This document shows positions 3,528-25,805 of a stretch of 25,805 nucleotides of DNA, piece after piece. The stretch lies in contig JALGPX010000137.1 in NCBI GenBank assembly GCA_023515795.1, forward strand, positions 1-25,805, given 5' to 3'. The notes beneath the pieces are model-generated. The model was not told the origin of the DNA, did not search any database, and saw only the letters and a list, made by a program, of their open reading frames with translations. Position 1 is the stretch's first letter; every line of letters begins with the position of its first letter. The DNA is from Amoeboaphelidium occidentale (lineage: Eukaryota > Aphelidiomycota > Aphelidea). Made by a program: the position numbers and the translations under genes.

Positions 3528-3556
3528 GATCGATAGAACATAGAGATTCATCATTT

Positions 3557-4836: not shown

Positions 4837-4862
4837 TTAGAACGCTGAAACAAGTCAAATAG

Positions 4863-4868: not shown

Positions 4869-4878
4869 AGCGACAAAC

Positions 4879-5775
4879 TCATCGACGACGGAATTTGCAC
4901 TGAACCCAGACACGGTGCATCTTCTTCTTCTCTAATCTGTTAACAATCAGCCTTCTATCGTAGCCACTCTGAACAATTTCAAACTGATCATCAGCAGTTG
5001 CCAATGATTCCATCTCTTCCAGAGTAAAGAAGTGAACTAGAGTATTATCACCGCGAATATAGACTTCATTATCCTTATTGATTAGTCTTTCAGGTTTGAA
5101 ACGCAACTGAGCCATATCAAATCTACCATAATCTCTGATGAGCAGCATACCACCAGGCTTTAACCATTTGTGAAACTTTTTCATTACACGAGAAAGGGCA
5201 TGTGGTTCGACAGCACTTAGCACAAACACAGCGAGAATAGCGTCAACTGAGTTCTCCTCGAAAGCTTGTTGTAAGTTTCCATCTCGATCAACCATCGGAA
5301 TATCAGATTCAGTTGAAGTGAGGTCATACTGAACAGCTGTGATCTTTGAAGCATCGTACTCTGGGTGACTTTTAACTAAATCTACAGCAACATCACTAAC
5401 ATCCAAAGCAATAACCTTTGAAAGTTTATCATTACTTTGCACAATAGGATACACAGAATTTCCAGCACCACAACCACATTCCACGACAACTTGTGCCTCC
5501 AACAACTCTGGAAATTCATTGCCAAACCAGTTACGATCTTTAAAGAATTTGTTTTCGTGTTTACTGTAGAAATCATTCCAGTTAACACGCGAATCTGGAG
5601 CTTCTTTATCAGATGCTAATTCCTTCTGTTGATTTATTCTATCAATTGCAGCTTGCTCCTGTTCAGAGGTCATTTCTACATGATCCCATGCGTTATGGTT
5701 GAACACGTCCGCAGAATCTTTGAGATATCTTGTCCCGAAATTATTCGCGCCAGCTTCCTTGTTCTCAACTGTCAT
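4879..5775 (-). CDS. METTL2/Trm140-type tRNA N3-methylcytidine methyltransferase
   Basis: 298 residues, start at the ATG at 5775; the upstream in-frame codon is TTG, so it is not the start. The family makes m3C at position 32 of the anticodon loop of certain tRNAs (Thr, and Arg or Ser depending on species), using S-adenosylmethionine. Family hallmarks visible: FGTRYL (13-18), NAWDHV (28-33), W-x-x-FYSKHENKFFKDR-W (66-83), EFPEL, SAM-binding motif I ECGCGAGNS (99-107) and the acidic ALDVSD (123-128). A Rossmann-fold core follows, with DAILAVFVLSAVEP and LKPGGMLLIRDYGRFDMAQ. Length matches stand-alone METTL2-like enzymes; there is no actin-binding N terminus as in yeast Abp140. A tRNA-Val gene lies 40 nt upstream on the same strand, so the promoter must be very short or overlap it. 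Confidence in subfamily is high. Confidence 0.92.
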   Translation of the reverse strand: MTVENKEAGANNFGTRYLKDSADVFNHNAWDHVEMTSEQEQAAIDRINQQKELASDKEAPDSRVNWNDFYSKHENKFFKDRNWFGNEFPELLEAQVVVECGCGAGNSVYPIVQSNDKLSKVIALDVSDVAVDLVKSHPEYDASKITAVQYDLTSTESDIPMVDRDGNLQQAFEENSVDAILAVFVLSAVEPHALSRVMKKFHKWLKPGGMLLIRDYGRFDMAQLRFKPERLINKDNEVYIRGDNTLVHFFTLEEMESLATADDQFEIVQSGYDRRLIVNRLEKKKMHRVWVQCKFRRR

Positions 5776-5804
5776 GACAAGCAAAAAGGAAAGACAGTTG
5801 GAAC

Positions 5805-5809
5805 AAAAA
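5805..5809 (-). terminator. RNA polymerase III terminator (T5) of tRNA-Val
   Basis: Five T residues on the minus strand lie 6 nt past the tRNA 3' end, in the place expected for a Pol III stop and about 30 nt before the methyltransferase ATG. Confidence 0.6.
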
Positions 5810-5815
5810 CTAACG

Positions 5816-5901
5816 TGGTCCTTCCCGGGTTCGAACCGGGGGCCTTCGCTGTGTACATATAAAATGTGAAAGCGATGTGATGACCACTACACCAAAGAAC
5901 C
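5816..5901 (-). tRNA. tRNA-Val(CAC) with a 13-nt intron
   Basis: Read on the minus strand from 5901. The acceptor stem GGTTCTT pairs with AAGGACC (one T-G pair), with discriminator A at 5816. The D arm TGGTGTAGTGG is a perfect A box and continues TCATCAC, as in eukaryotic tRNA-Val. The anticodon stem is TCGCT/AGCGA with loop TTCACA-C; anticodon CAC is at 5868..5866. The T arm CCGGG-TTCGAAC-CCGGG contains a consensus B box. The extra 13 nt (5864..5852) sit between positions 37 and 38, the canonical nuclear pre-tRNA intron site. Mature length is 73 nt without CCA, and CCA is not encoded. Position 32 is T, so this tRNA is not itself a substrate for the neighbouring m3C32 enzyme. Confidence 0.93.
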
Positions 5902-7705: not shown

Positions 7706-7925
7706 AATTGATAAATGAATCCTTTTTGAACTTTTCTGTCTCTTGAATGCCTCTCGGCACGTGGTAGCATTCTGTAACCTCAAAACTCCGATCAAGGTGT
7801 AGCATTCAACACGTGGGATACAACACAATCTTGGACTTCAAAGTTTCCATGAGAGATGAAATAACTTGGCAATTCCAGAAATCAGTGCAAATTGCAAACA
7901 ATTTCATTACCAGGATCATTTATCA
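7706..7925. promoter_or_regulatory. divergent intergenic region between LRR gene and first receptor gene
   Basis: 220 bp separate the two ATGs and must contain both promoters and leaders. No recognisable TATA or repeated operator stands out. Confidence 0.4.
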
Positions 7926-10900
7926 ATGTGGAAACTTACATTGATTTTGTTGCCACTACTTTGCTATATCAGTCATGGTTTTGATCATTCGAAAACATTC
8001 TTGTTACAGGATAGTGTGGATGCTGTAAGATCCGTCGGAGTATACAAAGAATCCTTTTTGTACAGCTACTCCACTGATATTGTCCAAAAGAATATCGAAA
8101 CAGGACGAATTGAGAGAACTTTAAGGGCACATCCTAATTCTATTCAATCTTTGCTCGTACTGAATAATCCTATAATGATATCAGGCTGTTATGGCAACTT
8201 TGTGATATTGTGGGATCTTGAAACAGGTTCAGTGTTGAAGCGATTCTACTTAGGATCAGCTGAAATTCTACTCAGTGGCTTAATCGTTCTGAATGATGTT
8301 GCGTTTACCAGTGGCCTGGATGGCAATGTTAGGAGAATTGATGTGACTTCAAATCGAGTGACGGTTCTGGCTCGATTTCCTAATCAAGTCACTTGCATCA
8401 CAGCGTACGGCGATTTCATGTTTGCTTGTGTCAGAACAACTCCATTACTTAGGAAATTTCTGATAAGTTCAGGAGCTTCATTAGGTTCATTCTCAGGGCA
8501 CCTTAGCCCCTGCTTAACTTTGGCGACTGTTCGTAATTATCTTTTCTCTGCATCAGGTGACGGTATGTTCATTCAATGGGATGCCGACACCGGGCTGTAC
8601 TTAAAAGATTTTGGAGATCTTGATGTTCCTGTTGATAAATTGCATTCATATAGAGGCTTTCTATATTCCTCTGATAGGAATGATATTGTGACTAAATGGG
8701 ATATTGAGACAGGAAAGGGCGTAATGAAATACATTATTCCAGATGCATTTTTTATTCAATGTTTTGATTTCAAGGATGATGTTATGCTCTTTGGTAATTC
8801 TAATGGCTTTGTTGCAGCTTTCAATGATTCCAGCGGAGAACAATTAGCAACTTACTCAGGTACAGCAAAAAGACTAAACGCTTTGGTATTTTGGAAAAAT
8901 TATATAGTAAGTGCTGGCTCAGGGTCTTTTTTGACCATGTGGGACTCGGCCTCTAATGGGTTTGAGCCTCTGAGAAGAATCAATGTTGACGGATATCACT
9001 TGTACTGCATGGTTGTCTATGAAGATTATGTTTACTTTGGTGGTTCCAGCTCTATTGCATACAAATGGGATTTGATTGATTTCAAGCCCATGTTGTTATA
9101 CAATGGCCATCTACGATCAATTGCTTCTCTCCTCGTTAATAATGATTTCTTAATTACTGGTGGTACAGATACGTTGATTTTTCAATTTAATGTATCTTCT
9201 GCTGAAATTATTCATGTCTTTGGAGGCCATACTTTGACTGTTAATTCCGTTAGGCTTGTCGACAATCTTTTGCTATCTGCGAGCGATGATAAGTACATCA
9301 TTACATGGGATCTTAACACAAGGGATGATGTTCGGAATTTCAGACTCACAGGAAACGTTAACGATATCCTAATTTTTGGAAACAATCTCTACGTAGCCGC
9401 CGCATATGGGATGGACTTGTACTCGGTTTCAACATATGAAGTGTTGGCTGCATTCCGTGAAAGTTTTGAATGTTTGACTCTAGCAACAGATAATGTCAGG
9501 CTGTTTGGTGGGTTTAAAGATTCCAGGATCAGAGTTCGGGATATGAATTCGCTTAACATTCTAGAAGTATACCAAGGTCACTCTGACGTCGTGACTTCGC
9601 TAAGTTTCAGTGACGGGTTTACTTTATTCTCCGCAGGATACGACGGAACGATAAAGAAGTGGAATATGATTTCAAGAAGAGTAGCTTTTTCATACGAAAA
9701 TAGGAATGGATCAATAACTACCATAGGTGCTATTGCAGGTCAACTACTTGTTGGTTATAGAAATGGGGTCATTGCAACTTTTGATATCACGACAGCAAAT
9801 TATGACAAACTCATTAGTGTCCATACAAGAGCTGTTTCTTCAATGATACCTGCTGATGATGGTTTCATTACCTCTGGTTTAGATGGATTGATAGTTTGGC
9901 ATAACCAGACGGACTCGAGTAATGCGTGGACAATTATGAGCCAGCAAGCAGATTCTGTCAGTGGTCTTGCCGCTTCGAACTCACTTCTTGCTTTTATTAC
10001 TAGAGATATCGAAATTCATTTCCTCTCCAAAAATAACTCTGAACACTTACCAGAAAATATAGTATCAGCAATACCGGTTCAATGTCTTGCAATCACTGAC
10101 TTTCTACTTCTAGCCGGTTCCAAATCTGGGGGAGTCTATGCTTGGAATTTGGAGGACGGCAAACTCGAGTTTGAAGTCAAAGAACACACTGGTGTTGTGA
10201 ACGATATTGTAGTTAACGGAGAAGCAATCCTTTCTGCATCTGATGACGGCTCGATTATTCAATGGTCATTGAAGACCTTAAATCCTGTTTTCATCATGAA
10301 GAGACAATCTTTAACTTCTATTGGCCATTCAGGACCTGTTATTTCGTTATCAACATGCAATGGTATATTATTCTCAGGTGGCTCTGATATGTCCATTCGC
10401 CGATGGAGCCTTGATAACGGAAGACACCAAGATGTTTACTTTGGTCCGACAAAAGCCGTCTCTGCTGTACTCTGTTACAATAACTCCGTTTACTCGGGCA
10501 GTGAAGATTCTGCTGTCTACTTGTACACTCCTGACAATCTCATCACTCCCGAAACGAAGGGTGCTTCTGAGGGATCAAGTCTAAGAAATGGTCCGAGAAA
10601 GGCTAGAAAAGTCACCAAGTCAGCCAATGAACTTCATTCCCTTCAAGTTTCCTCGTTCGTTATTCCTATTGCAGTTATTTTTGCTTGCTTTTCTTTGATT
10701 TTGTCATTTGGTTTTATGTTGCAGCTTTACAGGCGAAAGCAGAAGGAGCCTCTGAGAGAGAGTCAAATTACATCATACAGTTCTAATTTCACTACATCTG
10801 ATATGGCCACATTCGTGAATTCATCTATGGGTATCTCAAAACATGCAGCGTTCGAAATTTCATCATCTGATGTAGTCGCTGTCAAAAATTTGGCTACCGG

Positions 10901-11525
10901 CGGAGGCGGCTTAGTTAATATCGCAAAGCTTATGGATTCAGCACTTGCGAAACAGCATGGGTCTACAGTTATCCAGAAGAAAGTATTTGTTAGAGATGAA
11001 ATAAGCAAGGAATCGTTTGACCAAGAAGTCGGAATCATGGTCATGCTTTCAACGTATCCCCATTTTTGCAAAATTATCGGATACACTTTGAACCCGATAG
11101 CCTTGATACTGGAGTACTATCCAGATGGAAGTCTTGCAGATTGGATAAAGAGTCAAACTGCTTTATCACCATATGTGACCAAAGTATCTCGTGAAATTGC
11201 TGAAGCGCTGCTCACTATGCACTCCCGTTTTCTGGCTCATTGTGACATCAAGACCCAAAATGTTTTGATCAGAGTAGTCGGAGGAGTTCCATCATCTTAT
11301 TTGACAGACTTTGGTATTACGCAGGTTCTTTCTGAAACAATTGTGGATGCGAAATTCTTCTCTATTGTTAATTTGAGAGGATTATCCGTTAATTTCGCTG
11401 CACCAGAAGCATTTATGAACTTTCGCAGGAGGATAAATACCGTAATTGACTACAAGAAGTACGACATCTACTCGTTCGCGTGTGTTCTATATGAGATCAT
11501 GACAAGGAAAACATCATGGAAGTAA
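7926..11525 (+). CDS. WD40 receptor kinase 1 (signal peptide, about 21 WD40 blades, TM, non-RD kinase)
   Basis: Single exon, 1199 residues. Start at the ATG at 7926; the open frame begins earlier at TTG. Residues 1-19 form a signal peptide. Residues about 25-890 hold 21 WD40-like blades that I count by their strand-d cores (for example NFVILWDLETG, YIITWDLNT, GTIKKWNM, SIIQWSLKT, SIRRWSLDN). Residues about 909-933 are one transmembrane helix followed by RRKQK, consistent with kinase-inside topology. A juxtamembrane motif (MATFVNSSMGISKHAAFEI) precedes the kinase. Kinase elements: ATGGGGLV loop (about 989), VIQKK with the ATP-binding Lys, DQEVG with the helix-C Glu, HCDIKTQN (about 1104, catalytic Asp and Asn kept, Arg of HRD replaced by Cys), TDFG and APE, then YDIYSFACVLYEI. 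The protein ends at KTSWK, before helices G-I. AATAAA follows at 11539. First of a five-gene array. Ligand and pathway unknown. Confidence 0.88.
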   Translation: MWKLTLILLPLLCYISHGFDHSKTFLLQDSVDAVRSVGVYKESFLYSYSTDIVQKNIETGRIERTLRAHPNSIQSLLVLNNPIMISGCYGNFVILWDLETGSVLKRFYLGSAEILLSGLIVLNDVAFTSGLDGNVRRIDVTSNRVTVLARFPNQVTCITAYGDFMFACVRTTPLLRKFLISSGASLGSFSGHLSPCLTLATVRNYLFSASGDGMFIQWDADTGLYLKDFGDLDVPVDKLHSYRGFLYSSDRNDIVTKWDIETGKGVMKYIIPDAFFIQCFDFKDDVMLFGNSNGFVAAFNDSSGEQLATYSGTAKRLNALVFWKNYIVSAGSGSFLTMWDSASNGFEPLRRINVDGYHLYCMVVYEDYVYFGGSSSIAYKWDLIDFKPMLLYNGHLRSIASLLVNNDFLITGGTDTLIFQFNVSSAEIIHVFGGHTLTVNSVRLVDNLLLSASDDKYIITWDLNTRDDVRNFRLTGNVNDILIFGNNLYVAAAYGMDLYSVSTYEVLAAFRESFECLTLATDNVRLFGGFKDSRIRVRDMNSLNILEVYQGHSDVVTSLSFSDGFTLFSAGYDGTIKKWNMISRRVAFSYENRNGSITTIGAIAGQLLVGYRNGVIATFDITTANYDKLISVHTRAVSSMIPADDGFITSGLDGLIVWHNQTDSSNAWTIMSQQADSVSGLAASNSLLAFITRDIEIHFLSKNNSEHLPENIVSAIPVQCLAITDFLLLAGSKSGGVYAWNLEDGKLEFEVKEHTGVVNDIVVNGEAILSASDDGSIIQWSLKTLNPVFIMKRQSLTSIGHSGPVISLSTCNGILFSGGSDMSIRRWSLDNGRHQDVYFGPTKAVSAVLCYNNSVYSGSEDSAVYLYTPDNLITPETKGASEGSSLRNGPRKARKVTKSANELHSLQVSSFVIPIAVIFACFSLILSFGFMLQLYRRKQKEPLRESQITSYSSNFTTSDMATFVNSSMGISKHAAFEISSSDVVAVKNLATGGGGLVNIAKLMDSALAKQHGSTVIQKKVFVRDEISKESFDQEVGIMVMLSTYPHFCKIIGYTLNPIALILEYYPDGSLADWIKSQTALSPYVTKVSREIAEALLTMHSRFLAHCDIKTQNVLIRVVGGVPSSYLTDFGITQVLSETIVDAKFFSIVNLRGLSVNFAAPEAFMNFRRRINTVIDYKKYDIYSFACVLYEIMTRKTSWK

Positions 11526-11667
11526 TATGGAGCGTCTTAATAAACTCGATTAGTGATATCAGCGAAGACATTATAAAAGCATCAATGTCGAGTGTGATTA
11601 CAGGGCTTCTGTAGTCCAAGCAGTAGCGCTTGCTTGCTCTTACTGGCTGCATCTCTTCCGATCACCG
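11526..11667 (+). other. short spacer between receptor genes 1 and 2
   Basis: 142 bp hold the 3' end of gene 1 (AATAAA at 11539-11544) and the promoter and leader of gene 2. An open stretch at 11554-11614 could be an extra 3' exon of gene 1 (see findings), but the poly(A)-like motif argues against it. Confidence 0.5.
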
Positions 11668-14600
11668 ATGAAATCTCTCCCATCTCTGCTATCACTGATA
11701 CTTCCTATTTGTTTCAGTCTCGAATATGAGAAAAGCTTTCTAGTTATTCGTAAGTTTTTTAGAAGTGTTCTCTTATTGCTGTAGCTGATATACCGACCCT
11801 CCAAGAGATTGCTGTGTATCAGGATACTGTGCTGGTGACTGCAGGAAATGATATTAAACAGATCGATGTTGATACTGCATCCGTTCTAAGAACATTCAGG
11901 GGCCACTCTAAGCAAGTGGTATCATTCAGACTCCTTTATGGCTCCAGGATGATCACATCAAGTTGGGATGATGACATTATTGTCTGGGAACTTGAAACAG
12001 GCTCCATTTTGCGAAGAATGAACATTGACTATCCTGGTATGAGCATTAATAGCATTGATTTACATGCGAATGAAGTTATAGCCGCCGGCGCAAGCGGTTT
12101 CATCAGATCTCTCGATTTCTCTACTGGAGTATCATCAAGTCTCATAGGTAGCCTTTCAATACCAAACGCCAATTTTTTAGAATTGAATGGCCTCATATTC
12201 TGCATAAAGGCTTTTCTCGGCTTCTTATATGTCGGGGGACAGTTCCAAGGGTTTGCAAGCAAGATTGATTTGATCACTGGACAGAGAGTACTTGATTTCT
12301 CTGGTAAGCGAGTTATGCTTTAAACTGACTGTAGGCCACACGAACTCTGTCATATCACTTGATGTTGATAATGATTTTTTTACTGGGAGCGCTGACAATA
12401 CCATAATACGCTGGAATGCATATAGCGGCGCTCAAATTAGAACGTATGAAGGCCATTCCGATTTTGTCCACGTTGTAGTTTTTTACGATGATACCCTATT
12501 CTCAGGTTCGAAAGACAGGTATATTATCAGGTGGGATATAAACACTGGGGATATCTTGCAGAGGTTTCCCTTGGCTCACTCGTCAACGGTTTATGACTTG
12601 GCTTTCGGTGAAGAATTTATGTACAGTGGTGGTTTTTTCGGTGACATAATCAAATGGAATGCCTCTTCTGCGCAATTTGTGTCTAGATTTAAAGTTCCAT
12701 CTAAAAGATTACGAACTATGGCGATTTGGAGACAGTTCATTATAAGTGCAAATGAGTTAGGTGTATTAACTGTTTGGGACAGTTCAGTTGAAGCGAAACC
12801 TTTAACAATTATTAAAGCCCATGACTTTGCTGTCTTCGCATGCAAGATATATGATGAAACTCTTATCACGGCGGGTTATGATGATCGTATCAAGCAGTGG
12901 GATATGTTCGATCTCAAGTTGATTAAAGTTTTCAATGAGCCGTTTAGGCCATTTGAATCTTTAGAAATTATCGATGGCTCTCTTTACTTGGGCGATTCCT
13001 CTGGATTTCTTTCTGTTTGGGACATATCAACAGGCTCAGAAGTTACAGTAGTCAATGCTGATGGTGATGTCATTACATGTTTGTATTCTTCGGACTACGG
13101 TTTGCTATCAGGAAGCAGAAACTCATTGTTAAATTTATGGAACACAGTTAACTTGGTTAAGATTTGGAGCCATTCCCGTAAGTTCTCACGTCACTATCGC
13201 TTAAACCATTAGATTTTGAAAGAATTTTTGATATCATAGTCATTGACCTAGACGTTATTTTCTCTTCATTTGGAGTATTTAAAGCCTCGATTCTTGATGG
13301 ACACGAATTAACTTACATTCAAACTGATTTTCCAGTTTTTTGTTTGGTAAGTGATGGTTTCAACTTCTATAGTGGGAATGAAGACTCCAGCATTCACTTA
13401 CGAAGTGGCATGGACTTAACAGTTATACGATCACTTCTTGGGCACGCAGCATCAATAACCAGACTTGTGTTAGACAGCAGTGGAGTCTTGTATTCTTGCA
13501 GCATAGATGCTACCGTAAAAAAGTGGAATATGAACACTTTTAAAGTGGCCTTTTCTTTTGAAAACAAAACCTGGTCAGTTCTGTCTTTAGCTGCCCACCA
13601 GAATCAACTTTTCGTTGGCCTAGAGGACGGACTCATACACATGTTTGATACTGATACTGCAATGCTACTTACCGGAATTTATGGGCAAACAGGACCTATT
13701 AATTCATTATTTATTGAAAATCAAACACTTGTATCATGCTCGTCAGATGGAACGGTGATAGAAAGAAACTTAAAAACACTAACCGAGTCCGTAACGAGAA
13801 ATAATGGCACACGGCCCATCATTGGAGGCACTTTTGGTCTGGCTGGTTTATACTTTGTGCAAGAGAATTCTTTGATAAAACGATTTAACTCGACTATGAA
13901 GCAGCCAATGTCATTCATATACGATAGTGAAATGCTGATTAACACAATACATGCAAGTCAGACACATTTATTGGTTGGCTCTAGAAGTGGTAGCATTCTT
14001 GGATTCGACATTATCTCTGGAATTAAACAGTTCGAACTGCATTATCACTCCGCTGCTGTCAACTCAATTGTTGCTCAAACAGACGATATTTATTCTGCCT
14101 CAAGCGACAAATTGATTATCAAGTGGTCGCTGAGCTTACGATCCTTGATTCAGATCATGTCTAGATCAAGATTGAACTCTCTAGGCCACAATAGTGCTGT
14201 CAACAGCTTGACTCTCTGTAATAGTGTGCTCTTTTCAGGTGGCTCCGACTTAACCGTGAGAAGATGGAACACCATGAATGGAAAGCACGAAAATGTTTAC
14301 TTTGGACATTCCAAAGCTATTACTTCAGCTATTTGTCACAATGGATCTGTTTTCTCCGGAAGCTTAGACGGAGCAGTGTTGATGTACAGACCGGCTTTTT
14401 CTAGTATTACTCTGACTACTTTGGCCAAAAAATCTACGACAGATCGAGTTGTTTCGAGATTGCCTAGAAGAGTGGTTACTGTGAAAATTGATAATCGAGA
14501 AGAGACATCCAGCTCCTTATTACTAATTATAGTGATCGCAGCTGCTATTTTCTTAATAATAGTTGCCTGTATTTTAACATACATGGTTTCACAAAGGAAA

Positions 14601-15386
14601 CAGCATTTCTCCTCTCCTCAGTCTTCATCACAGATCGGAGGTACGACGTACACTGCCCGTGATATTCAAACTCTGGTCAATTCTTATATCGGTCTTTCAA
14701 AGCATGCTGCTTTGGAGCTGCAACCGGATGCTTTTACTACTCGCAGGCTTTTTGCCGCTGGTGGTGGCGGATCTTTATACTTTGTGGAAACTAATGATCC
14801 GAATTTGATGAAAGTTCATGGAAAAACATTAGTGCAGAAAGTCATTCTTATGAAAGGAAGTCGCATGAGAGATTTGTTCTTTCAGGAAGTCGCAATTATG
14901 GCTATGCTCAGGGACTATCCCAATTTCTCTGTGATTGTCGGATATACGGCGGAGCCTCTTTCGATTGTTATGAAGCTTTATTCAAAAGGTTCATTATCAG
15001 ACTGGCTTAAATCAAATCAGGTTTCAAAAGTTTCCATCAACAAAATATTGATTGATGTTTCAAAAGCCTTGGAAGTTATGCATAATCATCACCTGGCTCA
15101 TTGTGATGTAAAATCACAAAATATTCTTGTAGAAATCATTCGTGGTCTTCCATACTGCTTCTTGACAGACTTTGGAATAACTCAAGTGCTATCTTCTGAA
15201 GCTTTGGCTACGACTGCATTTGATGTTATTAACGCCCGTGGACTATCTGCACCCTATGCATCACCAGAGTCATTGCAAAACCTAAGCTCTAGAGTCTTCT
15301 TGAATGTTGATTACAAAACGTACGACGTATATTCATATGCCTGTGTTATGTTGGAAGTTTTAACTCGGAAGCCCGCATGGAGTTGA
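11668..15386 (+). CDS. WD40 receptor kinase 2, four exons
   Basis: Coding exons 11668..11749, 11785..12303, 12335..13177 and 13213..15386 give 1205 residues. The first exon encodes a signal peptide (MKSLPSLLSLILPICFS) and LEYEKSF, matching the start of paralogue 4 (LEHEKSF). Splicing restores continuous WD40 sequence at every junction (FSG-HTNSV, SHS-HFERI). I count 21 blades, as in the other complete members. The transmembrane helix is at about 916-940 (LLLIIVIAAAIFLIIVACIL), followed by SQRKQ. Juxtamembrane motif: LVNSYIGLSKHAALEL. Kinase: FAAGGGGSL loop (about 995), LVQKV Lys, FQEVA Glu, HCDVKSQN (about 1110), TDFGITQV, SPE instead of APE, YDVYSYACVMLEVL. It ends at KPAWS with TGA, at the same place as the paralogues. 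Blade 12 (near GVFKASILDGHE) is the weakest. Likely membrane receptor; partner unknown. Confidence 0.87.
11750..11784 (+). other. 35-nt intron 1 of receptor gene 2
   Basis: GTAAGT to GCTGTAG with a CTTAT branch-like motif. It separates the signal-peptide exon from the ectodomain; phase 1, codon C|CT. Confidence 0.85.
12304..12334 (+). other. 31-nt intron 2 of receptor gene 2
   Basis: GTAAGC to ACTGTAG, with CTGAC near the 3' end. It splits the Gly codon of the GH dipeptide that opens a WD40 blade; phase 1. Removing it joins VLDFSG to HTNSVIS. Confidence 0.9.
13178..13212 (+). other. 35-nt intron 3 of receptor gene 2
   Basis: GTAAGT to CATTAG with CTTAAAC before the end; phase 1. The downstream exon stays open from 13213 through the rest of the gene. 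Confidence 0.85.
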
Positions 15387-15454
15387 GTATGTAGATTGAA
15401 ATATTTGGTGAGAGGGATCGATAATCATAATGTTCCGTCTCCAATAATTAATGA

Positions 15455-15484
15455 AACACTTAGGCTCACTATAAACTAAGTGTT
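15455..15484. repeat. inverted repeat, 9-bp arms, 12-nt loop
   Basis: AACACTTAG at 15455-15463 is the exact reverse complement of CTAAGTGTT at 15476-15484. It could fold in the 3' region of gene 2; function unknown. Confidence 0.55.
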
Positions 15485-15537
15485 CACATACAAATGGCTG
15501 GATTTTGTTCTATTCATGCAGAACCACATCAATCAAC

Positions 15538-15560
15538 ACTTGTTTCGTAATGAAACAAGT
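15538..15560. repeat. inverted repeat, 9-bp arms, 5-nt loop
   Basis: ACTTGTTTC at 15538-15546 pairs with GAAACAAGT at 15552-15560. A tight hairpin; one such match is near chance level in a window of this size. Confidence 0.5.
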
Positions 15561-15684
15561 ATGATCCTAATGGAGCCTTTATAATAAACTGAATAACTGG
15601 CCCTATGCTGTTTTTTTAGCTTCAATGCGTTATTCGTCCACCATTAGTTTGACAAATTGCATTGTTTCATCAATTCAAATCAAG

Positions 15685-18600
15685 ATGAAGCTGACCGCCA
15701 GACTGATAACCCTCCTCATAGCCTTTATCATTCATAGTGCGCTGGGTTTGGGGCATATCAAGACCATCTTTATTCAAGATAATGTCGACGAAGCTAAGAA
15801 AGTCTTGGTCTATCAGAATTACATTCTGTTCCCTTACGATAAAGATATCGTGCAAGTGAACATTGAAACTGGGATAATTGAAAGAACCCTGAGAGGGCAC
15901 GGTATCGCTATTGATTATTTTGAAATCTCCAAAGGAAACAATCTGGCCACTGTCGACTTTGATGGTATCTTTTGCGTTTGGGATCTGGAAAGCGGTTCGA
16001 TCATTGGGAAGTATGAGCTTCCTTTCGGAGCCGGTGAATTCCTGGGAGTTTCTTTTGGACCAGATGCACTTTACCTTGGCCAACTATATGGTTCCTTTCA
16101 CAAGCTTAATCTACTTTCCAACAAGATTTCTGCAATCATTACACTGCCCTATTTTATCGAAAGCATGATAGCGTATAAGAATTTCCTTTTCGTTGGCATT
16201 AATGAGGCTCCCTTTTTGTTCAAGATAGATTGTGACACTGGCAGAATAGTTGGGACTCTGAGAGGTCATGAAGCCTCCCCTGTGGCGCTTGCCGTTGAGG
16301 GTAATTATCTAGTTTCAGCCGGAACCGATGGCTTGATCATTCTATGGAATGCAGATACCAGCGGTTTTTTGAAAAGCATTGGATCCAGAGAAGATTCTGC
16401 GTTTAATGTCGCCATTTACAATGGTTTTATATATGCTCACAGTTACGAGAACATGATTGTAAAGTGGAACATCGAGTCTGAAGCAAGGGCAAACATTCCA
16501 CAGATCGCATCCGCCGAGCGTAAATTGAAAGTTTCATTCTATAAGGACATGATTTTCATCGGTACACAGAAAAAGCGAATCCTAGGTTTAGATCAAGATA
16601 GTGGCGAAACAATATTTGAATACGTAGCAAAAAGAAAGCAGATCTTTGCCATAGCATTGTGGAAAAACTTTGTTTTAAGCGCAGGCTCAAACGAATATGT
16701 AGACTTTTGGGATACCGATTCGAGCTTTCAGGGAAGCTCTTTTGCTGTCGATGCAACAAGAAACAACATCTACAGTCTTCATGTTTACAGAGATTATTTG
16801 TTCTTTGCAGGAAATTTTTCAGCAATAGTCAAATGGTATCTTCCTGATGCCTTACCGATTATGGTATTCCAGGGGCATAATAGTACAGTTAACACAGTAG
16901 CTGTGGTCAATGATACAATGTTCTCTGGAGGTGCGGAGAATGATATTTTCGGATGGAATCTCACAACAGGAAATCTGATATCTAAATTGACGAGCCACTC
17001 TGGAGAGATAAATGTTTTGATTTACGGAAATCAGACGTTATTCTCTGGAAGCGACGATAGAACAGTTAAATTATGGAATGTTGTTTCACTAGAAACCGAA
17101 AGAACCATAAATGCAGGTGATCAGATTCTCGAGATGATTTTTGTAGAAGATGCCATATATACATCACTCTTTAGCGGGATAGTGAAATATTCTCTTTCTA
17201 CTGGGGAAAAATTGACTGAGTTTTATGATGGCGCTCCTTGTTTAGCTTTGGAGACCGACGGAACCTTGCTTTATGCTGGCTATACAAATTCAAGAATTTT
17301 AATAATGACTTTAGATGATTTTGATCCTGTCGCTTATCTTTTAGGGCACAAGGATCAGGTTACTTCCCTTGCTTGGGATTCAAGAAATTTTCTTTACTCT
17401 GCTGGACTAGACGGCACTGTCAAGTCTTGGAACTTGTTAACGCGAGACATCGCATATACATTTGCAGACAGTCGTCTTCATGTGGTTTCCCTGGCTGCGG
17501 ATAGAAATCTTTTATTTGTTGGATTGTTCGACGGTGCGTTAGCGTCATTCAATATCTCCTCAAATTTACCTAAAAGTCAGTTTGAAGAGCACCAGAAATC
17601 CGTAACATCTCTGCTAATCCATAATGAGAACCTGTACTCTGCTGGAATTGACGGGCTTATCAAAAGATATAATTTGAAAGATGAAGATGGCTTCATCGTT
17701 TACCAAAACCGCTCTGCAAGAATTAGACAGTTGATTTCAAATGGAAATAACCTAATCTTTCTATCAGGGTCAAATCGAATTTCAATTCTACCTTTGAATA
17801 GTGCTGTTGAAATTTCGCAAAGTGTCGTCTCTCCTTTCGATTTGCGAACTCTAGCTTCTTCTGACAGTTTGGTTTTTGCTGGGACAAATAATGGCCTGAT
17901 CTTCGCATGGAATATATCTTCGGGAAAAATTGCTTTTGAACTTCAAAAGACGACTGCTGCGATTAATTCCTTGTTGATTGAAAGGAATTCTGTCTTTTCT
18001 GCAAATGACGACGGATCCATATATGAATGGTCCATAGAAAGCTTGCAGATTGTGTTTAATTATTCAAGAATTCCTTCTTTAACATTGGGTCATGTTGGTC
18101 CGGTTCGTTCCATGACTTTGTGTAATTCTATTCTTTTTACGGGAGGCAACGATGCTTCGATACGCAGATGGAATATCACAAGCAGTCAACTAGAAGACAT
18201 TTACTTTGGACCAGAAAGTCCTGTGACATTATTGTATTGCAACAACATCTCTCTTTTTGCAGGGACTGTTGTCAGCGGGGTCTACATGTATGACCCTGGT
18301 TTTGTATTTGATTTGTTACCAGACAGCGCCTCAAGCACTGGCTCAGACAATAATTTTGATACTATGTCTTTGAGAACTCCTGCTAATACAAAGATAATTG
18401 ATACGTTTGGCGATACTACAACAAATGAGATTAATTCAACTTTGCTCATAATTCTGCTTATCATGTCTCTAATGTTAATTTGTCTTTGCGTTTGGTACTT
18501 TTGCAAGCAAAGAGCTCCGAGCAAGCCAAATTTTGATAATTCTTTAAGTACACAACTCTCTACACAGGACGCTAATCAAACGGCTACTGATTTAAACACT

Positions 18601-19317
18601 TTTGTCAATACATCTATCGGGATATCTAAGCACGCCGCACTAGAGATTCCTTCAGAATATGTCGCAGTTGTAAAGAAGATAGCTGCTGGCGGCGGTGGTA
18701 GTGTGTTTCTGGCAAAGCTGATGGACCCCAATCTTGCCAACAAGTTTGGAGAGGTTGTGATCCAAAAACAAATCTACATCAACAATAAGATTAATGAGGA
18801 AGCTTTCTACCAAGAAGTTGGTATAATGGTTATGCTGTCGTTGTTTCCGCAATTCTGCACAATTATCGGATATACTTTGGATCCCATGGCCATTATTCTC
18901 AAATTTTACCCCGCAGGATCGCTGGCTGAGTTAATCAGGGGTCAGTCTTACGGATTAAGGCTCATAATGAAAGCCTGCATGGACGTAGCCAAGGCGTTGA
19001 GTGTTATGCACAGCCAATTTCTTGCTCATTGCGATATGAAACCACAGAACATTTTGATTGAGATTAAGAATGGGAACATTTCATGTCTAATTACTGATTT
19101 TGGTATTACACAAGTCCTTTCAGAGAAGGTTATTGCGACAAAAATGTTTCATACGGTTAATTTGAGAGGCCTATCCGTGAATTACGCCAGTCCAGAAGCG
19201 TTCGCTTCATTCAGATCAAAAAATTATACTGGAGTCAAGTATACCAAGTATGATATCTACTCTTACGCTTGTATTATTTACGAACTCCTTGTAAAATCTG
19301 CACCATGGAGCCAATAA
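15685..19317 (+). CDS. WD40 receptor kinase 3, single exon
   Basis: 1210 residues from the ATG at 15685, chosen because MKLTARLITLLIAFIIHSALG is then a standard signal peptide; the ATG at 15625 would add 20 residues in front. No intron is needed. I count 21 WD40-like blades (for example IFCVWDLESG, LIILWNADTS, TVKLWNVVS, TVKSWNLLT, SIRRWNITS). Transmembrane helix at about 917-938 (LLIILLIMSLMLICLCVWYF) followed by CKQR. Juxtamembrane motif FVNTSIGISKHAALEI. Kinase: IAAGGGGSVFLAK (about 998), VIQKQ Lys, FYQEVG Glu, HCDMKPQN (about 1114), TDFGITQV, SPE, YDIYSYACIIYELL; it ends at APWSQ with TAA. The kinase core residues are intact apart from HRD changed to HCD, and the C-lobe is short as in its neighbours. 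Confidence 0.88.
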   Translation: MKLTARLITLLIAFIIHSALGLGHIKTIFIQDNVDEAKKVLVYQNYILFPYDKDIVQVNIETGIIERTLRGHGIAIDYFEISKGNNLATVDFDGIFCVWDLESGSIIGKYELPFGAGEFLGVSFGPDALYLGQLYGSFHKLNLLSNKISAIITLPYFIESMIAYKNFLFVGINEAPFLFKIDCDTGRIVGTLRGHEASPVALAVEGNYLVSAGTDGLIILWNADTSGFLKSIGSREDSAFNVAIYNGFIYAHSYENMIVKWNIESEARANIPQIASAERKLKVSFYKDMIFIGTQKKRILGLDQDSGETIFEYVAKRKQIFAIALWKNFVLSAGSNEYVDFWDTDSSFQGSSFAVDATRNNIYSLHVYRDYLFFAGNFSAIVKWYLPDALPIMVFQGHNSTVNTVAVVNDTMFSGGAENDIFGWNLTTGNLISKLTSHSGEINVLIYGNQTLFSGSDDRTVKLWNVVSLETERTINAGDQILEMIFVEDAIYTSLFSGIVKYSLSTGEKLTEFYDGAPCLALETDGTLLYAGYTNSRILIMTLDDFDPVAYLLGHKDQVTSLAWDSRNFLYSAGLDGTVKSWNLLTRDIAYTFADSRLHVVSLAADRNLLFVGLFDGALASFNISSNLPKSQFEEHQKSVTSLLIHNENLYSAGIDGLIKRYNLKDEDGFIVYQNRSARIRQLISNGNNLIFLSGSNRISILPLNSAVEISQSVVSPFDLRTLASSDSLVFAGTNNGLIFAWNISSGKIAFELQKTTAAINSLLIERNSVFSANDDGSIYEWSIESLQIVFNYSRIPSLTLGHVGPVRSMTLCNSILFTGGNDASIRRWNITSSQLEDIYFGPESPVTLLYCNNISLFAGTVVSGVYMYDPGFVFDLLPDSASSTGSDNNFDTMSLRTPANTKIIDTFGDTTTNEINSTLLIILLIMSLMLICLCVWYFCKQRAPSKPNFDNSLSTQLSTQDANQTATDLNTFVNTSIGISKHAALEIPSEYVAVVKKIAAGGGGSVFLAKLMDPNLANKFGEVVIQKQIYINNKINEEAFYQEVGIMVMLSLFPQFCTIIGYTLDPMAIILKFYPAGSLAELIRGQSYGLRLIMKACMDVAKALSVMHSQFLAHCDMKPQNILIEIKNGNISCLITDFGITQVLSEKVIATKMFHTVNLRGLSVNYASPEAFASFRSKNYTGVKYTKYDIYSYACIIYELLVKSAPWSQ

Positions 19318-19858
19318 CAACCTAAAATCGTGACCGTTTCGGGGTACGTACTGGTAATGCGCAATAGAGTCTCTTGATCCTACAAACTACCAACCCTATA
19401 TGTATAATAATCGGATGAATTTCTGACTCTTTCAAAGGACTAATAATCTATAAACGCTTTGGCTTGTAAGCTTAATTTTTTATGGCAAGCACAAAGCCGT
19501 TAATGAAATCCTTTCATCTTCGAAAAGGCGTTTCAAGAAAGCATCATAACGCACAGATGTAGCTGATGGGTTTATACGTTAAGACATTTTTCAATTACTT
19601 TGAAGGCGCCCTCAAAACGTTCATCTGGCAGAAAGTGGCCGAGTTTGAAGAGAGGATAACGGCAAGTTTCAACTTAAAAGATGCAAGTAAACCAAATGCA
19701 CTCTAAGAGCGCATCTCAGCTCGAAGAAAACCGAAAAGTATTGCTGATTTCACGCGGAACTCTTAATAACAAGATTTGATGCTTGATTCAGACTACGGCG
19801 GGGCTGTAACAAGGATTTTTTTCTTGACAACACCGTTTCAACTCAAATACTCAATATC
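19318..19858 (+). other. 541-bp intergenic region, no gene seen
   Basis: Longest non-coding stretch of the window, between receptor genes 3 and 4. No credible open frame, tRNA or long repeat was found. It must contain the 3' end of gene 3 and the promoter of gene 4. A GTGGCCGAGT stretch near 19636 looks like a tRNA D-arm but lacks the rest. Confidence 0.5.
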
Positions 19859-22800
19859 ATGCTTATCAAATTATTGGCTGCTTTGCTTGCCTTACTCTTC
19901 TCAAAAGCCTCATCTTTAGAACATGAAAAGAGTTTTCTCTTACAAGATGGAGCTACATTTGTGTATTCAATTGCTTTTTACAGAGATTCATTGCTGCTTA
20001 CTTCCTCAAACGATATCATCCAAAAAGACATTGAGACTGGTGCGATACAGCGAACATTTAGGGCCCATACCAACCAGATACAGTCATTTCTAGTGGTAAA
20101 CGATACTAGAATGATCACATCAGCATGGGACGACATGATCATCCTTTGGGACTTGGAATCCGGCTCTGTATTGAAAAGAATTTGGTTGAGAGCACTAAGA
20201 ACATCTGTTAATTGCTTAGCATTTCTTGATAATCAACTGTTTGCTGCAGGTTTTGACTTTACAGTAAGGAGGATTGACTTAGTTGGTGCAAAAGTGACGA
20301 CAGTTATCCGTAAGACATGATAAGGTCGGCTTCTTATCGCATAGGCTACGCTTTTTCAGTATCAAGTATCTTGGTTGACAGAGAATTCCTCTATCTTGGA
20401 ATGGAGGGTTCTTCAACAAAACTACAGAAGATCAACGCTCAATCATCAAGCTTAGTATTGAATTTTGATGGACATAGTGATTCTGTCTTTGATCTCGCCT
20501 TGTCTGCAAACTTGCTCTTTTCAGGATCTGCCGATAGGAGCATAATTTGTTGGAATCCTGATAACGGAGAACTCTTAAGGACATTAGTTGGACACACAGC
20601 TTATGTCTACGTATTGTACAATCTCGCAAACGATCTTTACTCTGGAGGGAGCGATGGTAATATCATTAAATGGAACATCCCGGATGGTCAAATGTTAAAG
20701 TTATATCCGAGCTACCACGATGGCACTGTAAGATGTATTGCAGCAAGAAATAATGTTTTATTCTCAGGATCAGAAGATACCGTAGTTATCAAGCGAAATA
20801 TTTCCACAGGATCGCCACTTTTCGTTTACAGAGGCCGGCAACGAACACTTACATCGGTTGTTTTATGGACAAACTTTGTAATCAGTGGTGGAGATGACGC
20901 GTTGGTAAGATCATGGGATTTATCTTTTGACAGCTTGGAATCTGCTTTTATCCTGGAAGGCCATTTAAATTGCGTCAACTCCCTTATCATTTATGACGAC
21001 TCTCTCTTCTCGGGAAGTTCTGATCTAACCGTTAGACAATGGAATATAACGGACTTTAGTTGTTTAAAGATCTTTTTGGGTTAGTTTCTTTTTTTTGATT
21101 ACTTAAACTTAGGGCATACAAGTTCCGTGATGACTCTGGCTGCTGGAAATTCTTTTCTTTATTCTAGCGGATACGACAGAATCATAATACAATGGAATGT
21201 CTTATCAGGAATTGCAATGAAGGAATTTATTGGTCATTCAGGTTCTGTCTTATCATTGCTACATAGTGATGATAATATAATTTCTGGATCGGAGGATTGG
21301 ACAATGAAGATCTGGGAAACTATGAACGCTCAAAATACCCAAACATTCAATGTCTATAGTCCTGTTCAATGCATTCTTTTGCTAGGTGATAGAATTGTTT
21401 CTGGTTCGGTAAGGGGATTTGATATGATTCAAATATCTACCGCAGAAAGTATCGTCAGTCTTGAAGAGTTCAGTGTTGCATATGCTATTGAAGCATCTGA
21501 TTCTCGAATTTTCAGTGGACATTTCCAAGGAGTCATAAATGCAAGAGATTTGAATTATTTGACAATATTAGATATTTATCAAGGACACCAAGACGTGGTC
21601 TCTAGTATTTGTATTGATTTGAACGGCGTTCTTTATTCTGCAAGTTACGATGGCTCTATAAAGAAATGGAATATGGCTGCTCGCAAAGTCGCATTTTCTT
21701 TTGAAAACCGTGAAGCTTCTGTAACTGCAGTAGCTGTATCAAGAAATTTCCTTTTTGTCGGAACAAGAAGCGGTCAAATCAATGGTTTTCAAATCAGTTC
21801 AGCTTTCAATATTCACTCTTTCAATTACCACAGCAAGTCGATAACAGCCTTCATGATGGCAGAAGATGGACTATATTCTTCTGGTTTGGATGGTCGCATT
21901 CTTAAGATCCCTTATGATAATGTTAATGATGCTATTATTATTTATGAAGATCAAGAAGCGCCTGTGAAGAGCCTCGCTTTAACATCAGAAAATTTGTTCT
22001 TAATCCGAGGCGAATTAGAAATCGCTCTTCTTCCTCGAAATCTTTCAACAGCTTTCACGAGAAAGATATACTCCGGAGCCCCATTAATCTCTATCATCGC
22101 CACGGAAAATTTGATATTGTCCGGGGCCAAATCTGGAGTAATTTATGGATTTATAGCTCAGACAGGGTCACTCAAGTTTGAGCTAAAAGGTCACACCGCC
22201 CGAGTCAATAACCTGTTAGTAGAGGAAGACATCCTGTTTTCCGCTTCCGATGACAAGACAATTATTCAGTGGTCTCTGAAGGATGCAAATGTAATGAAAA
22301 TATTGAAAAGATATAGTTTGAATGCCCTTGGTCACTTGGGTCCTGTGAATTCACTCTCGATATGCAACAACATGCTTTTCTCCGCCGGTTCAGACAACAC
22401 TGTAAGAAGATGGAGCAAGTTTACTGGCAAGCACGAAGATGTTTATTTTGGGTTCTCAAAATCTGTCTCCAGTGTAGTGTGTTATAATAACTCTATTTTT
22501 GCTGGAAGTGAGGATTTCTCAGTTTTGATGTTCCGTCTGCAGCCAACAGGCGAAGATACCACGGGGAAACCTCAGTTTACTCAAATGCCAACCAAAAGTG
22601 CAGGATTTAAACGCAAGATTATCAAGTCACCGAAAACGCCTGCATCAGAAGATTCTTTGCCCTTCTTGCAAATCGGAATAGTTTTAGTAATTGTCTTTAC
22701 TTTAATTTCAATATCTGTTCTACTGATCCGAAGAAAAGTAACTAGAGAACTAATGAAAAAATCAGAGTCTCCTACGGTTTCAACAGACTATTCTATATCT

Positions 22801-23532
22801 GTTACCAACTTGCAAACTGTAATCAACTCCGTGATGGGCATTTCTAAGCATGCTGAATTTTTGATTGAGAGTTCTTCCATTGCAAAATACAAAAAAATTG
22901 CTTCTGGTGGTGGTGGAGAATTGTTCCTAGCGAGAATAATGAACAGTTCGCTAGCAGAAAAATTTGGAGATACGGTTATCCAGAAGATTGTCTTTATCAA
23001 GAACCAAACGACCGTAGAGGCTTTTTATCAAGAAGTCGGAATCATGATTATGCTTTCAACTTTTCCGCACTTCTGTAAAATAATTGGGTACACGGAGAAG
23101 CCTCTATCCATGGTATTGAAGTATTATTCTGACGGATCCTTATTTGACTGGTTGCATAAGAATCAAAGTGGCACAGCTATCAATATCAAAATCTTAAAAG
23201 AAGTTGCAGAGGCTCTGAATACCATGCATTCCCACTATTTAGCACATTGTGATCTAAAGTCCCAGAATGTACTTATTGAAGTTTTTCAGGGTATCCCTTG
23301 TTGTTATTTAACAGATTTCGGAATTACTCAGATTCTTTCGGATCAAATTGTTGCTACTCGCATGTTTAATATTATCAACTTAAGAGGATTGTCCGTTAAT
23401 TTTGCAGCCCCTGAAGTCTTTAATTCTTTCAGGGATAAAATTTACATCGGAGCTGATTTCAAGAAGTATGATATGTACTCCTTCGCTTGCGTGACATATG
23501 AAGTTTTAGTCAAGAAGTTTCCGTGGTTATGA
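19859..23532 (+). CDS. WD40 receptor kinase 4, three exons
   Basis: Coding exons 19859..20309, 20345..21079 and 21113..23532 give 1201 residues. Signal peptide MLIKLLAALLALLFSKASS. I count 21 blades (for example MIILWDLESG, NIIKWNIPDG, LTVRQWNITD, SIKKWNMAA, TIIQWSLKD, NTVRRWSKF). Transmembrane helix at about 910-933 followed by RRK. Juxtamembrane motif VINSVMGISKHAEFLI. Kinase: IASGGGGELFLAR (about 992), VIQKI Lys, FYQEVG Glu, HCDLKSQN (about 1106), TDFGITQI, APE, YDMYSFACVTYEVL. It ends at KFPWL with TGA. Its intron positions differ from those of gene 2. Downstream of the stop the frame stays open for 25 codons, which may be remnant C-lobe sequence. Confidence 0.88.
20310..20344 (+). other. 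35-nt intron 1 of receptor gene 4
   Basis: GTAAGA to CGCATAG with CTTATC before the end; phase 1 (C|GC, Arg). It joins TTVI-R to YAFSVSS in one open frame. Confidence 0.87.
21080..21112 (+). other. 33-nt intron 2 of receptor gene 4
   Basis: GTTAGT to AACTTAG, with a T-rich tract and CTTAAAC. It splits the Gly codon of a blade-opening GH dipeptide (FLG-HTSSV), phase 1. Though 33 nt is a multiple of three, retention gives an immediate TAG. Confidence 0.9.
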
Positions 23533-23781
23533 TCAGATGTCTTGAATGAAATAGATCATGAATACGCTCTGAATGGTATCTCTATGCAAGATTTTGTGGC
23601 GGGAATTTAGCAGCGACACTCATCTGTCGATACATCGTGATAGTTCAATCACAGTTGAACCTGGTTCCACATAGAATAACTTCACTCATTACCGATATCA
23701 ATTGCGACGATATTCTGCTTATATTCTTAGCGGTTGTGATAGAGACAATCCGTAGCAAATCTCAAACTTGTGCAAACAATC
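23533..23781 (+). other. intergenic region between receptor genes 4 and 5
   Basis: 249 bp. The frame of gene 4 continues past its TGA for 25 codons to a TAG at 23608-23610. The rest shows no gene or clear motif. Confidence 0.45.
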
Positions 23782-25805
23782 ATGACTTCGACGTTCAAAG
23801 TCATCATATTGTGCCTATGTGCAGCGATCTCAGTTACAAGTGCTGACAATGACTTCAAGAAGTATCTGTCTGCAAAGAAATCAACAGTTGATTATCTTCC
23901 TGTATCAATTGTTGGAATGTATAAGAATTGGCACATCAGTTATGTGGACAGCGACATACATTTCATTGATGTCGATACAGGTGCTCTGGTGAAAACCATA
24001 ACAGGTTTCAGTTCCCTTATAAGCTTACTTTTTAGCCTCATACACTTTGACTGATGGTAATGGCTTGATATCCGGAGCTGAAGTGGTTGACAAGTACTTG
24101 ATGATCTACTATACAGACAGTGTAATCCAACAATGGGATCTTGAAACCGGAGAGATCCTAAGAGAAATCAAACCTTCAAGGAGTAGCACTCTCAGCAGGG
24201 ACTGCGTTTGGCATTTTGATTTAGACCTTGTCTTCTGCAGCTTGGCAAACGGCTTCGTAAGAAAGATCAACATGGCCACCAAAAGAATTGAGACTGAGTT
24301 CGATGCCCATGATAACTATTGTTACCTTCTTGTCAACGGATCTCTTCTGTACACAGCAAGGTTTGATGGTTTGGTCAAGAAGTTTGATCTCTTCGGAAAC
24401 TTGTTGAATACATATGAAATATCCCTTGGTTATGCTAATATTTTGGCCTGTGAAGGCGAATACCTTTTTGTTAATTACTACAACATTGATGTCGATAGGA
24501 AGATACGCATAGTCAGGTGGAATCATATCACAGGAATCCCGGAGGAGTTTCCTGTTCCTATGAACACAATACTGGATCCAAGAAGTGCATCGAGGGATTA
24601 CTACTTTGCTGTTTCTCTTGGGCCACTAGGTTGCGAATATGCACAATTTTTTAAATCTAATTTGTCGGTGGTTCGTGCTTATTTGAGCGGAGAAGGCGGT
24701 TATTGGCCATTGAAACTTCCAAGTAATGGAGAGCGTTTCTTCTTTGCCTCGAATAATACCATGGTTGAGCTCTTTTTATCAAATGAAGGACTGACTCGTG
24801 GTGAAAGTATTAACTTGAAGTATAGCAATCCAACGATTTCAAATTTTGTTGTCTTGAATGAATCCACTATAATCGCTGTTTTTTACACTCAAAGTAACGC
24901 ACAAATTGCCTCAAGATTTATTGATTCACCCAGCGGAGTTTTTTCAAAAGTTGCTGATACTTTTGATGGGCATTCAAGATTTCTTGTTTCCGGAGACTTT
25001 CTTTATGCCGCTGTTGGAACAAAAGTTGTGGCTTATCACATGGCTAATTTATCTTTGGCTTGGGCATCTCCCGATATATCCCCGCAGAATATCGTTTATT
25101 TTGAGGTGAAAGATGATGTTATTTATTTTACTTCTTTCAATTACGCCGGATGGTATAACGCTTCCACTTTGGAGAAGATTGGTTTGATTGTCATACAAGA
25201 TACATTTTTTGGATCACCTGCTTTCTCTAACGGTGTACTGTACGCTCATTATACAGCAAACTCTGCTTACGCATTAGACCTTACCGACGGTAGTATTCTG
25301 AGACGCTACGTTGGGATGTCCAATGTTGTCTACTATGTGCTGATTCATACTGATTATCTTTACGTCGCAAATGCAGACACTTTCATCCACAAATTTAATT
25401 TTGAAAGTGAAGCACCTTTACTAATATTTGTTGGTCATACTAGAGATGTGCTAACGATCCTGATAAGAGGCCAAATGATGTACTCTGGGTCAAAAGATCA
25501 GACGATTCGCAAGTGGAATATCGACACTGGCGAGTCGTTGTTTATCTATTACGGCCACACCGAGGGTGTAAATCAACTGTCTATTTACGACTATTACATG
25601 TTCTCTGCTACCAACAAAGAGGTGAAGATCTGGGATCTTAACAGAGATCGGTTATACAAAACATTATCGGATAGATCGACAAATGTTATATCCCTTCGTA
25701 ACTCAGGAATTAATTTACTGACTTGTACTTTGGATGGCACAATAACTTTGTGGAATACCGAAATAGGATACAAGGTCAACGACTTATTCAAGGGAGAAGA
25801 CGGAA
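23782..25805 (+). CDS. diverged WD40 receptor-like gene 5, 3' end beyond window
   Basis: Exon 1 is 23782..24004 and exon 2 starts at 24036 and is open to the window edge, giving at least 664 residues. Start at the ATG at 23782 with signal peptide TSTFKVIILCLCAAISVTS; the upstream in-frame GTG is not used. WD40-like blades are visible (SVIQQWDLETG, FVRKINMAT, LVKKFDLFG, TIRKWNIDTG, EVKIWDLNR, TITLWNTEIG); I count about 15, with the middle ones (near residues 185-330) strongly degenerate and longer. It follows gene 4 head-to-tail, so it is probably a fifth member whose transmembrane and kinase parts lie to the right, but this cannot be seen. The start of the ectodomain lacks the L-x-Q-D sequence found near the N termini of genes 1, 3 and 4. 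Confidence 0.78.
24005..24035 (+). other. 31-nt intron of receptor-like gene 5
   Basis: GTTTCA to TTTTTAG with CTTAC upstream of the acceptor; phase 1. The donor is weak, but it is the simplest junction joining the signal-peptide exon to the long open frame. Confidence 0.7.

Follow-up and report, generated by a model that had tools for sequence, protein, structure and literature searches.

Predicted receptor-like kinases with WD40 propeller ectodomains and a shortened kinase domain form an expanded family in the aphelid Amoeboaphelidium occidentale

The gene array and its family

The window analysed here is the whole of contig JALGPX010000137.1 (C114; 25,805 nucleotides, nt) of the Amoeboaphelidium occidentale genome assembly GCA_023515795.1. 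Published work treats aphelids, which are parasitoids of algae, as sister to Fungi (PMC10608142). From 7926 to the contig end at 25805, the window carries a head-to-tail array of four complete genes (A, B, C and D) and a partial one (E), in which the complete genes encode proteins with a predicted WD40 ectodomain, one transmembrane helix (TM) and a short C-terminal kinase (Table 1). The gene models, built from genomic DNA alone, confirm the number and orientation of genes given by a first-pass annotation of the sequence: the spliced models of A to E contain no internal stops, A to D terminate with a stop codon and E is open to the last position. Because the contig finishes there, gene E is cut by the assembly, and its TM and kinase would fall past 25805. 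Introns are short, with three in gene B (35, 31 and 35 nt), two in gene D (35 and 33 nt) and one in gene E (31 nt).

Table 1. Coordinates of the array genes and of the parts of gene A within the window
Feature	Position	Strand	Description
Gene A	7926-11525	+	one exon, 1199 amino acids (aa); start peptide, WD40 ectodomain, TM, short kinase
Gene A signal-peptide-like start	7926-7979	+	residues 1-18; hydropathy; low-confidence helix in model
Gene A ectodomain	7980-10535	+	residues 19-870; 84 strands, 21 blades (predicted)
Gene A contiguous middle seven-bladed propeller	8859-9674	+	about residues 312-583 (predicted)
Gene A transmembrane helix	10647-10703	+	residues 908-926; hydropathy and model
Gene A kinase with conserved juxtamembrane part	10806-11522	+	residues 961-1199; terminates past helix F
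Gene B	11668-15386	+	exons 11668-11749, 11785-12303, 12335-13177, 13213-15386; 1205 aa
Gene C	15685-19317	+	one exon, 1210 aa
Gene D	19859-23532	+	exons 19859-20309, 20345-21079, 21113-23532; 1201 aa
Gene E, partial	23782-25805	+	exons 23782-24004, 24036-25805; start peptide and WD40

Genes A and C match both PF00400 and PF00069, as do the final exons of genes B and D, with 54.5-99.9 bits for PF00400 (cut-off 27) and 73.9-88.6 bits for PF00069 (cut-off 31.7). Gene E matches PF00400 (52.8 bits), and for gene A the matches in NCBIfam are all far below cut-off. Every complete gene has a hydrophobic start and a single strong TM around residue 910-930 by hydropathy. The signal peptide proposed in the first-pass annotation thus survives as a hydrophobic start in each gene, called from hydropathy alone, and with it the proteins show the receptor-like kinase order of signal peptide, ectodomain, one TM and C-terminal cytoplasmic kinase. 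The full layout (start, WD40, TM and kinase) was recovered in 41 of 58 modelled copies, four open reading frames (ORFs) of less than 300 aa having been removed ahead of modelling, and such repetition argues that the layout is not due to chance. In these 41 full models, the 12 residues flanking the TM hold 148 lysines and arginines on the inner side against 27 on the outer side, in agreement with the basic C-terminal side reported earlier for the single TM, and an additional hydrophobic 19-mer besides the start and the TM is found in four. Cysteine content is 0.94 per 100 aa outside and 1.72 inside, a difference that is not decisive for topology. The architecture is strongly supported, as is the expansion of the family, and a type I receptor-kinase arrangement is supported, with the topology itself being predicted.

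A kinase query against the genome gave 135 matches, of which those with at least 190 bits, a threshold of our own choice, amount to at least 71 loci on 38 contigs when counted manually from the match list. Some of these loci are fragments or contain a stop (for example C148:10677, C73:68807, C97:84980 and C62:4059). A neighbour within 10 kb is present for 46 of the 71, and all 30 neighbouring pairs lie on the same strand. These counts are lower bounds, because the assembly searched (11,314,846 bases, 204 contigs) is smaller than the published one (13,559,732 bases, 951 scaffolds; PMC10608142). In database searches, the strong matches, 46 in one search and 20 in another, were solely to proteins of A. 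occidentale and of metagenomes, and significance then dropped to E 3e-10 for a Megavirus kinase and E 4e-8 for a kinase of a plant. Identity to an A. occidentale copy is 90% or more for 10 of 35 metagenome proteins and below 70% for 19, so the family extends beyond a single strain. As far as the searches reach, these sequence comparisons support a strongly expanded, lineage-restricted family.

Kelch heads occur in the family as well. On contig C73, the copy at 2899-5664 (-) of locus L005 has Kelch models above the Pfam cut-off, a TM and a short kinase ending in PWSKFK; it sits between WD40-type copies on the opposite strand, and its catalytic loop reads HSD instead of HCD. Contigs C162 and C123 match this copy over the Kelch and kinase parts and C177 over the TM-kinase part only, and the metagenome proteins P0178 and P0179 also pair Kelch with a short kinase.

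The WD40 ectodomain

In an AlphaFold2 model of gene A, the ectodomain (about 850 residues) contains 84 strands, equivalent to 21 blades, which most likely form three seven-bladed propellers. With PF00400 repeats and a propeller fold both present, the WD40 ectodomain announced by the first-pass annotation holds at about that length. Fold matches run from residues 18-20 to 868-870 with about 275 residues aligned, and the N-terminal strand may therefore close a propeller ring. In a blade register based on this single model, mean column identity is low in blades 3-13 (0.22-0.38) and 16-18 (0.20-0.35) and high in blades 1-2 (0.53-0.55), 14-15 (0.46-0.52) and 19-21 (0.51-0.68), conserved and variable blades being intermixed in the last third of the ectodomain. 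Variability of the top and bottom faces does not differ clearly in blades 1-14; in blades 15-21, top loops (0.50, 0.57) are more conserved than bottom loops (0.25, 0.21).

A kinase domain ending after helix F

The protein kinase domain named in the first-pass annotation is present but incomplete. In genes A, B, C and D, the PF00069 match stops at profile position 197-198 of 263, so that the score and the catalytic residues of a canonical domain are there and helices G to I are not. When the window and 40 loci were queried with the kinase, 64 ORFs were obtained, 62 of which extend to the query end, and 61 of these terminate at a Trp followed by 1-8 residues, just past helix F. The sole exception, L007 1-1104 (+), reads Pro-Tyr and 23 further residues and is a piece with a TM-like start and without propeller. 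The same end is shared by 47 of 55 database relatives; the eight that differ are partial, fused or odd models (P0128, P0160, P0002, P0003 and P0005), a protein with an extra tail (P0175) and the two of Kelch type (P0178 and P0179), and the Pfam kinase matches of the last three finish at or before profile position 207. Since other kinases of the genome match through position 263, the early end is not a search artefact. RIO kinases lack subdomains X and XI. Among titles and the starts of abstracts on truncated kinases, no matching precedent was found.

All 41 full models preserve the catalytic Lys, the helix-C Glu, H-C-D, Lys, Asn, DFG and the helix-F Asp, and 40 preserve the Glu of APE. A wider set of 56 kinases, to which gene B and Kelch-type copies belong, shows no change at the Glu, H-x-D, Lys, Asn, DFG, the helix-F Asp or the terminal Trp. 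The catalytic loop reads HCD and is of the non-RD kind; by its HCDxKxQN motif we take it to be of Ser/Thr type. A model of the kinase alone reached a pLDDT (predicted local distance difference test) of 80.9 and a pTM (predicted template modelling score) of 0.79, and the pLDDT of helix F was about 91. In sequence and in fold, the matches of the domain fall among tyrosine kinases (TK) and tyrosine kinase-like (TKL) kinases, such as MAP3K2, LIMK1, IRAK4, FGFR3 and JAK1.

Splicing beyond the kinase stop was considered and rejected, as no donor pattern and no conservation were found after the terminal Trp; a donor-like site within 7 nt of this residue occurs in one of 62 copies, gene B, where it lies after the stop codon. 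Two further observations concern the same region. The 36 nt after the Trp codon are identical in L014 (C134) and L027 (C143), yet no long high-identity stretch joins the two copies. At L008 2178-2735 (-), a lone kinase C-terminal piece adjoins a full copy that it resembles in the sequence following the stop, and is perhaps a broken duplicate or part of an unmodelled gene.

Evolution of the family

The first-pass annotation saw a lineage-specific family expanded by tandem duplication. Expansion, same-strand arrays and, within the reach of the searches, lineage restriction were all recovered; the array in the window, however, is not a recent local duplication, because genes A to D share only 29-38% identity with one another and cluster in the tree with copies from elsewhere in the assembly (one on C127 for A, one on C133 for C and two on C36 for D, B standing alone). 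The intronless genes A, C, L001_902 and L020 fall together with L027 and L016_202, which have one doubtful model intron each, in one clade with support 1.0, and the sequences suggest one old intron loss.

Over 820 pairs of the 41 full models, the median proportion of synonymous differences (pS) is 0.76-0.81, and silent sites are mostly saturated. The median proportion of nonsynonymous differences (pN) is 0.435 for residues 25-560, 0.518 for 600-720, 0.316 for 735-880 and 0.252 for the kinase. Ten close orthologue pairs are identical at 90.2% (residues 600-720), 93.2% (735-880), 89.5% (stalk and TM) and 94.7% (kinase); the comparison is confined to these parts, as most metagenome proteins are without the first half. 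The ectodomain part that was compared lies only slightly below the kinase (90.2% vs 94.7%), so fast diversification is unsupported.

At silent sites, a few paralogue pairs are far more alike in the kinase than in the ectodomain. The synonymous distance (dS) of the kinase is 0.36 in L002/L003 and, for copies on different contigs, 0.74 in L025/L036 and 0.62 in L013/L017, with dS saturated across residues 25-720 in all three pairs, which had been selected as outstanding in a prior comparison. Only L002/L003 reaches 88% identity or more over at least 120 nt, and this in the kinase alone, two self-overlaps of fused models being excluded; four more pairs are 82-85% identical over part of the gene. 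Trees of the kinase and of residues 25-560 disagree in part: two of five supported splits of the former are contradicted by the latter, and seven of 13 supported splits of the latter by the former. These sequence patterns point to movement of the kinase part by gene conversion or exchange in a few paralogue pairs.

Other genes in the window

Upstream of the array, two overlapping frames at 76-1217 (+), each with a PF00264 match and with a hydrophobic stretch at the start, are tyrosinase-like and probably represent a single gene with an intron. Two trypsin-like protease genes (PF00089) at 1231-2181 (-) and 2384-3487 (+) have hydrophobic N-terminal stretches and are perhaps secreted. They are followed by a coiled-coil-like frame without Pfam match at 3557-4627 (-), a methyltransferase-like gene (PF13649) at 4879-5886 (-) and, directly upstream of gene A, a long open frame at 6035-7837 (-) that has no Pfam match, a leucine-rich look and a hydrophobic N-terminal stretch.

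Comparison with known systems

Plant receptor-like kinases, including non-RD immune kinases such as EFR, resemble the aphelid proteins in having a signal peptide, a repeat ectodomain, one TM, a cytoplasmic Ser/Thr-type kinase and large arrays, and those such as EFR also in a catalytic loop without Arg. The likeness is one of architecture: leucine-rich repeats there are replaced by WD40 here, and the aphelid kinase stops after helix F. Non-RD kinases have been tied to innate immunity across kingdoms (PMC8463890), which is a lead for the aphelid family and no proof of such a role; IRAK4 is one of many sequence matches of the aphelid kinase. ROS1/Sevenless receptors are described with three YWTD propellers outside, one TM and a kinase inside (PMC11743138), an arrangement close to that predicted here. 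They combine YWTD propellers with fibronectin type III (FNIII) domains and a tyrosine kinase, whereas the aphelid proteins have WD40 only, a Ser/Thr-type loop and a short kinase; WD40 fills residues 19-870 and the stalk of about 37 residues is too short for FNIII. Propeller ectodomains are therefore not new to receptor kinases, and it is their WD40 type that is unusual.

The WD40 fold is usually intracellular. The first-pass annotation had set the family apart from bacterial WD40 kinases and fungal WD40-NLR proteins by domain order or location, and the distinction by domain order holds. Bacterial WD40 kinases have been reported (PMC2176072; PMC5587647), and in PkwA the WD40 domain is placed at the C terminus, residues 441-742 (PMC6113231). 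PkwA likewise joins a WD40 propeller and a Ser/Thr kinase in one chain, and its WD40 domain (5yzv) is among the best fold matches of the aphelid ectodomain, but the order is reversed, the aphelid propellers being N-terminal behind the signal peptide and the kinase C-terminal. A NACHT or NB-ARC domain, as in fungal WD40-NLR proteins, was not found among the best 25 of 40 Pfam families for gene A, in which the propeller (19-870), stalk, TM and kinase leave no room for one.

According to a 2023 paper (PMC10608142), the A. occidentale genome paper (Mikhailov et al. 2022) noted differing receptor-like kinases in aphelids, and part of the present findings may already be in print there. Judged on titles and the starts of abstracts, no description of WD40-headed receptor kinases or of kinases ending at helix F was found, and only PMC10608142 mentions aphelid receptor-like kinases. 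The accessible text of PMC6299283 and PMC11767097 has no mention of WD40, kinase or receptor, and that of PMC8657485 and PMC10406608 none of WD40. What is newly found is the family of at least 71 loci with its metagenome relatives, the kinase end after helix F, the Kelch heads and the kinase likeness in a few pairs.

Proposed mechanism and alternatives

The receptor-like kinase family is real, large and unusual, and its earlier reading as receptors is partly supported. Taken as a whole, it is probably best explained as a large family of single-pass receptor-like kinases with WD40 heads outside the cell or in a vacuole lumen and a signalling kinase. The chain would enter the secretory path, about 850 residues would form WD40 propellers outside the cell or within a vacuole lumen, and one helix would span the membrane, leaving a Ser/Thr-type non-RD kinase in the cytoplasm, as predicted from sequence and model. 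We infer a location at the cell surface. The variable blades 3-13 and 16-18 probably hold binding specificity, and the conserved blades 1-2, 14-15 and 19-21 may make a fixed contact between receptors or with a common partner. A ligand would gather the kinases and initiate phosphorylation. The kinase retains both lobes up to helix F, and the surface exposed by the missing helices might, speculatively, dock a partner or a second kinase. Swapping of kinase segments among some loci whose ectodomains differ would fit many sensors feeding one pathway. In a parasitoid, the likeliest use would be the sensing of algae or of the state of the infected cell, with algal surface material as a first-guess ligand; attachment to algae, entry and engulfment are reported for aphelids, one strain of which infected Chlorella only (PMC3975115).

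Several results weigh against such a reading. Full layout is lacking in 17 of the 58 models, which are cut at locus ends, fused to a neighbour by modelling (gene B included), of another type or failed by the start-motif test. The ectodomain shows no enrichment of N-glycosylation sequons, with 270 seen in the 41 full models against 347.3 expected by shuffling; in the cytoplasmic parts 50 were seen and 67.3 expected, and the sequon at gene A residue 852 is present in all 41. The comparison of dN/dS between blades and kinase that the first-pass annotation had proposed foundered on saturation, and positive selection was not found, silent sites being saturated in the 820 pairs and orthologues well conserved in the 10. 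The variable blades spread beyond one propeller, the least conserved blade being 17 (0.20) and the most conserved 21 (0.68). Across the 56 kinases that include the Kelch type, conservation of the ATP-binding Lys and of the HCD Cys is 90% or more without being complete, and the C-lobe of the kinase reaches a pLDDT of only about 30-37 in the full-length model.

Among the alternatives, it is somewhat unlikely that the proteins reside in the membrane of an internal compartment, be it a food vacuole, a phagosome or the endoplasmic reticulum (ER), and sense its contents instead of the cell exterior. Their topology would be identical, and IRE1 and PERK are ER sensors with the order signal peptide, lumenal part, TM and kinase. 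Aphelids are also described as taking host content into food vacuoles (PMC3975115). However, at least 71 divergent loci fit varied ligands better than a single organelle signal. It could also be thought that the short kinase is catalytically dead and serves as a scaffold docking other kinases, given that 61 of 62 copies lack helices G to I and that the C-lobe is poorly predicted in the full-length model; this is quite unlikely, as the catalytic residues are retained in all 41 full models, the kinase has the lowest median pN and the kinase-only model folds well. A gene-model error, by which an unseen further kinase exon or a wrong first exon would make the truncation or the outside topology an artefact, is very improbable, for although the models come from genomic DNA and P0175 and P0179 carry residues beyond the usual end, the near absence of donor-like sites, the lack of conservation past the terminal Trp, the end shared by most database relatives and the mere 142 nt between genes A and B all speak against it.

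A bolder form of the receptor explanation, rather unlikely in its entirety, would have the WD40 or Kelch heads drive a minimal, catalytically competent kinase whose helix-F face is completed in trans by a partner or a second receptor on ligand binding, so that activation would consist in assembling a kinase fold. Gene conversion would keep the kinase parts exchangeable, and dozens of sensors would in this way converge on a single pathway by which algae are found and entered. Tests would be most rewarding for the truncation and the mixing of heads, and a large conserved family ending at helix F lets the minimal C-lobe needed for activity or signalling be tested. If the receptor explanation is true, A. 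occidentale would show that a large set of receptor kinases built from WD40 propellers exists on the fungal side of the tree, and would provide concrete candidates for prey sensing by a parasite.

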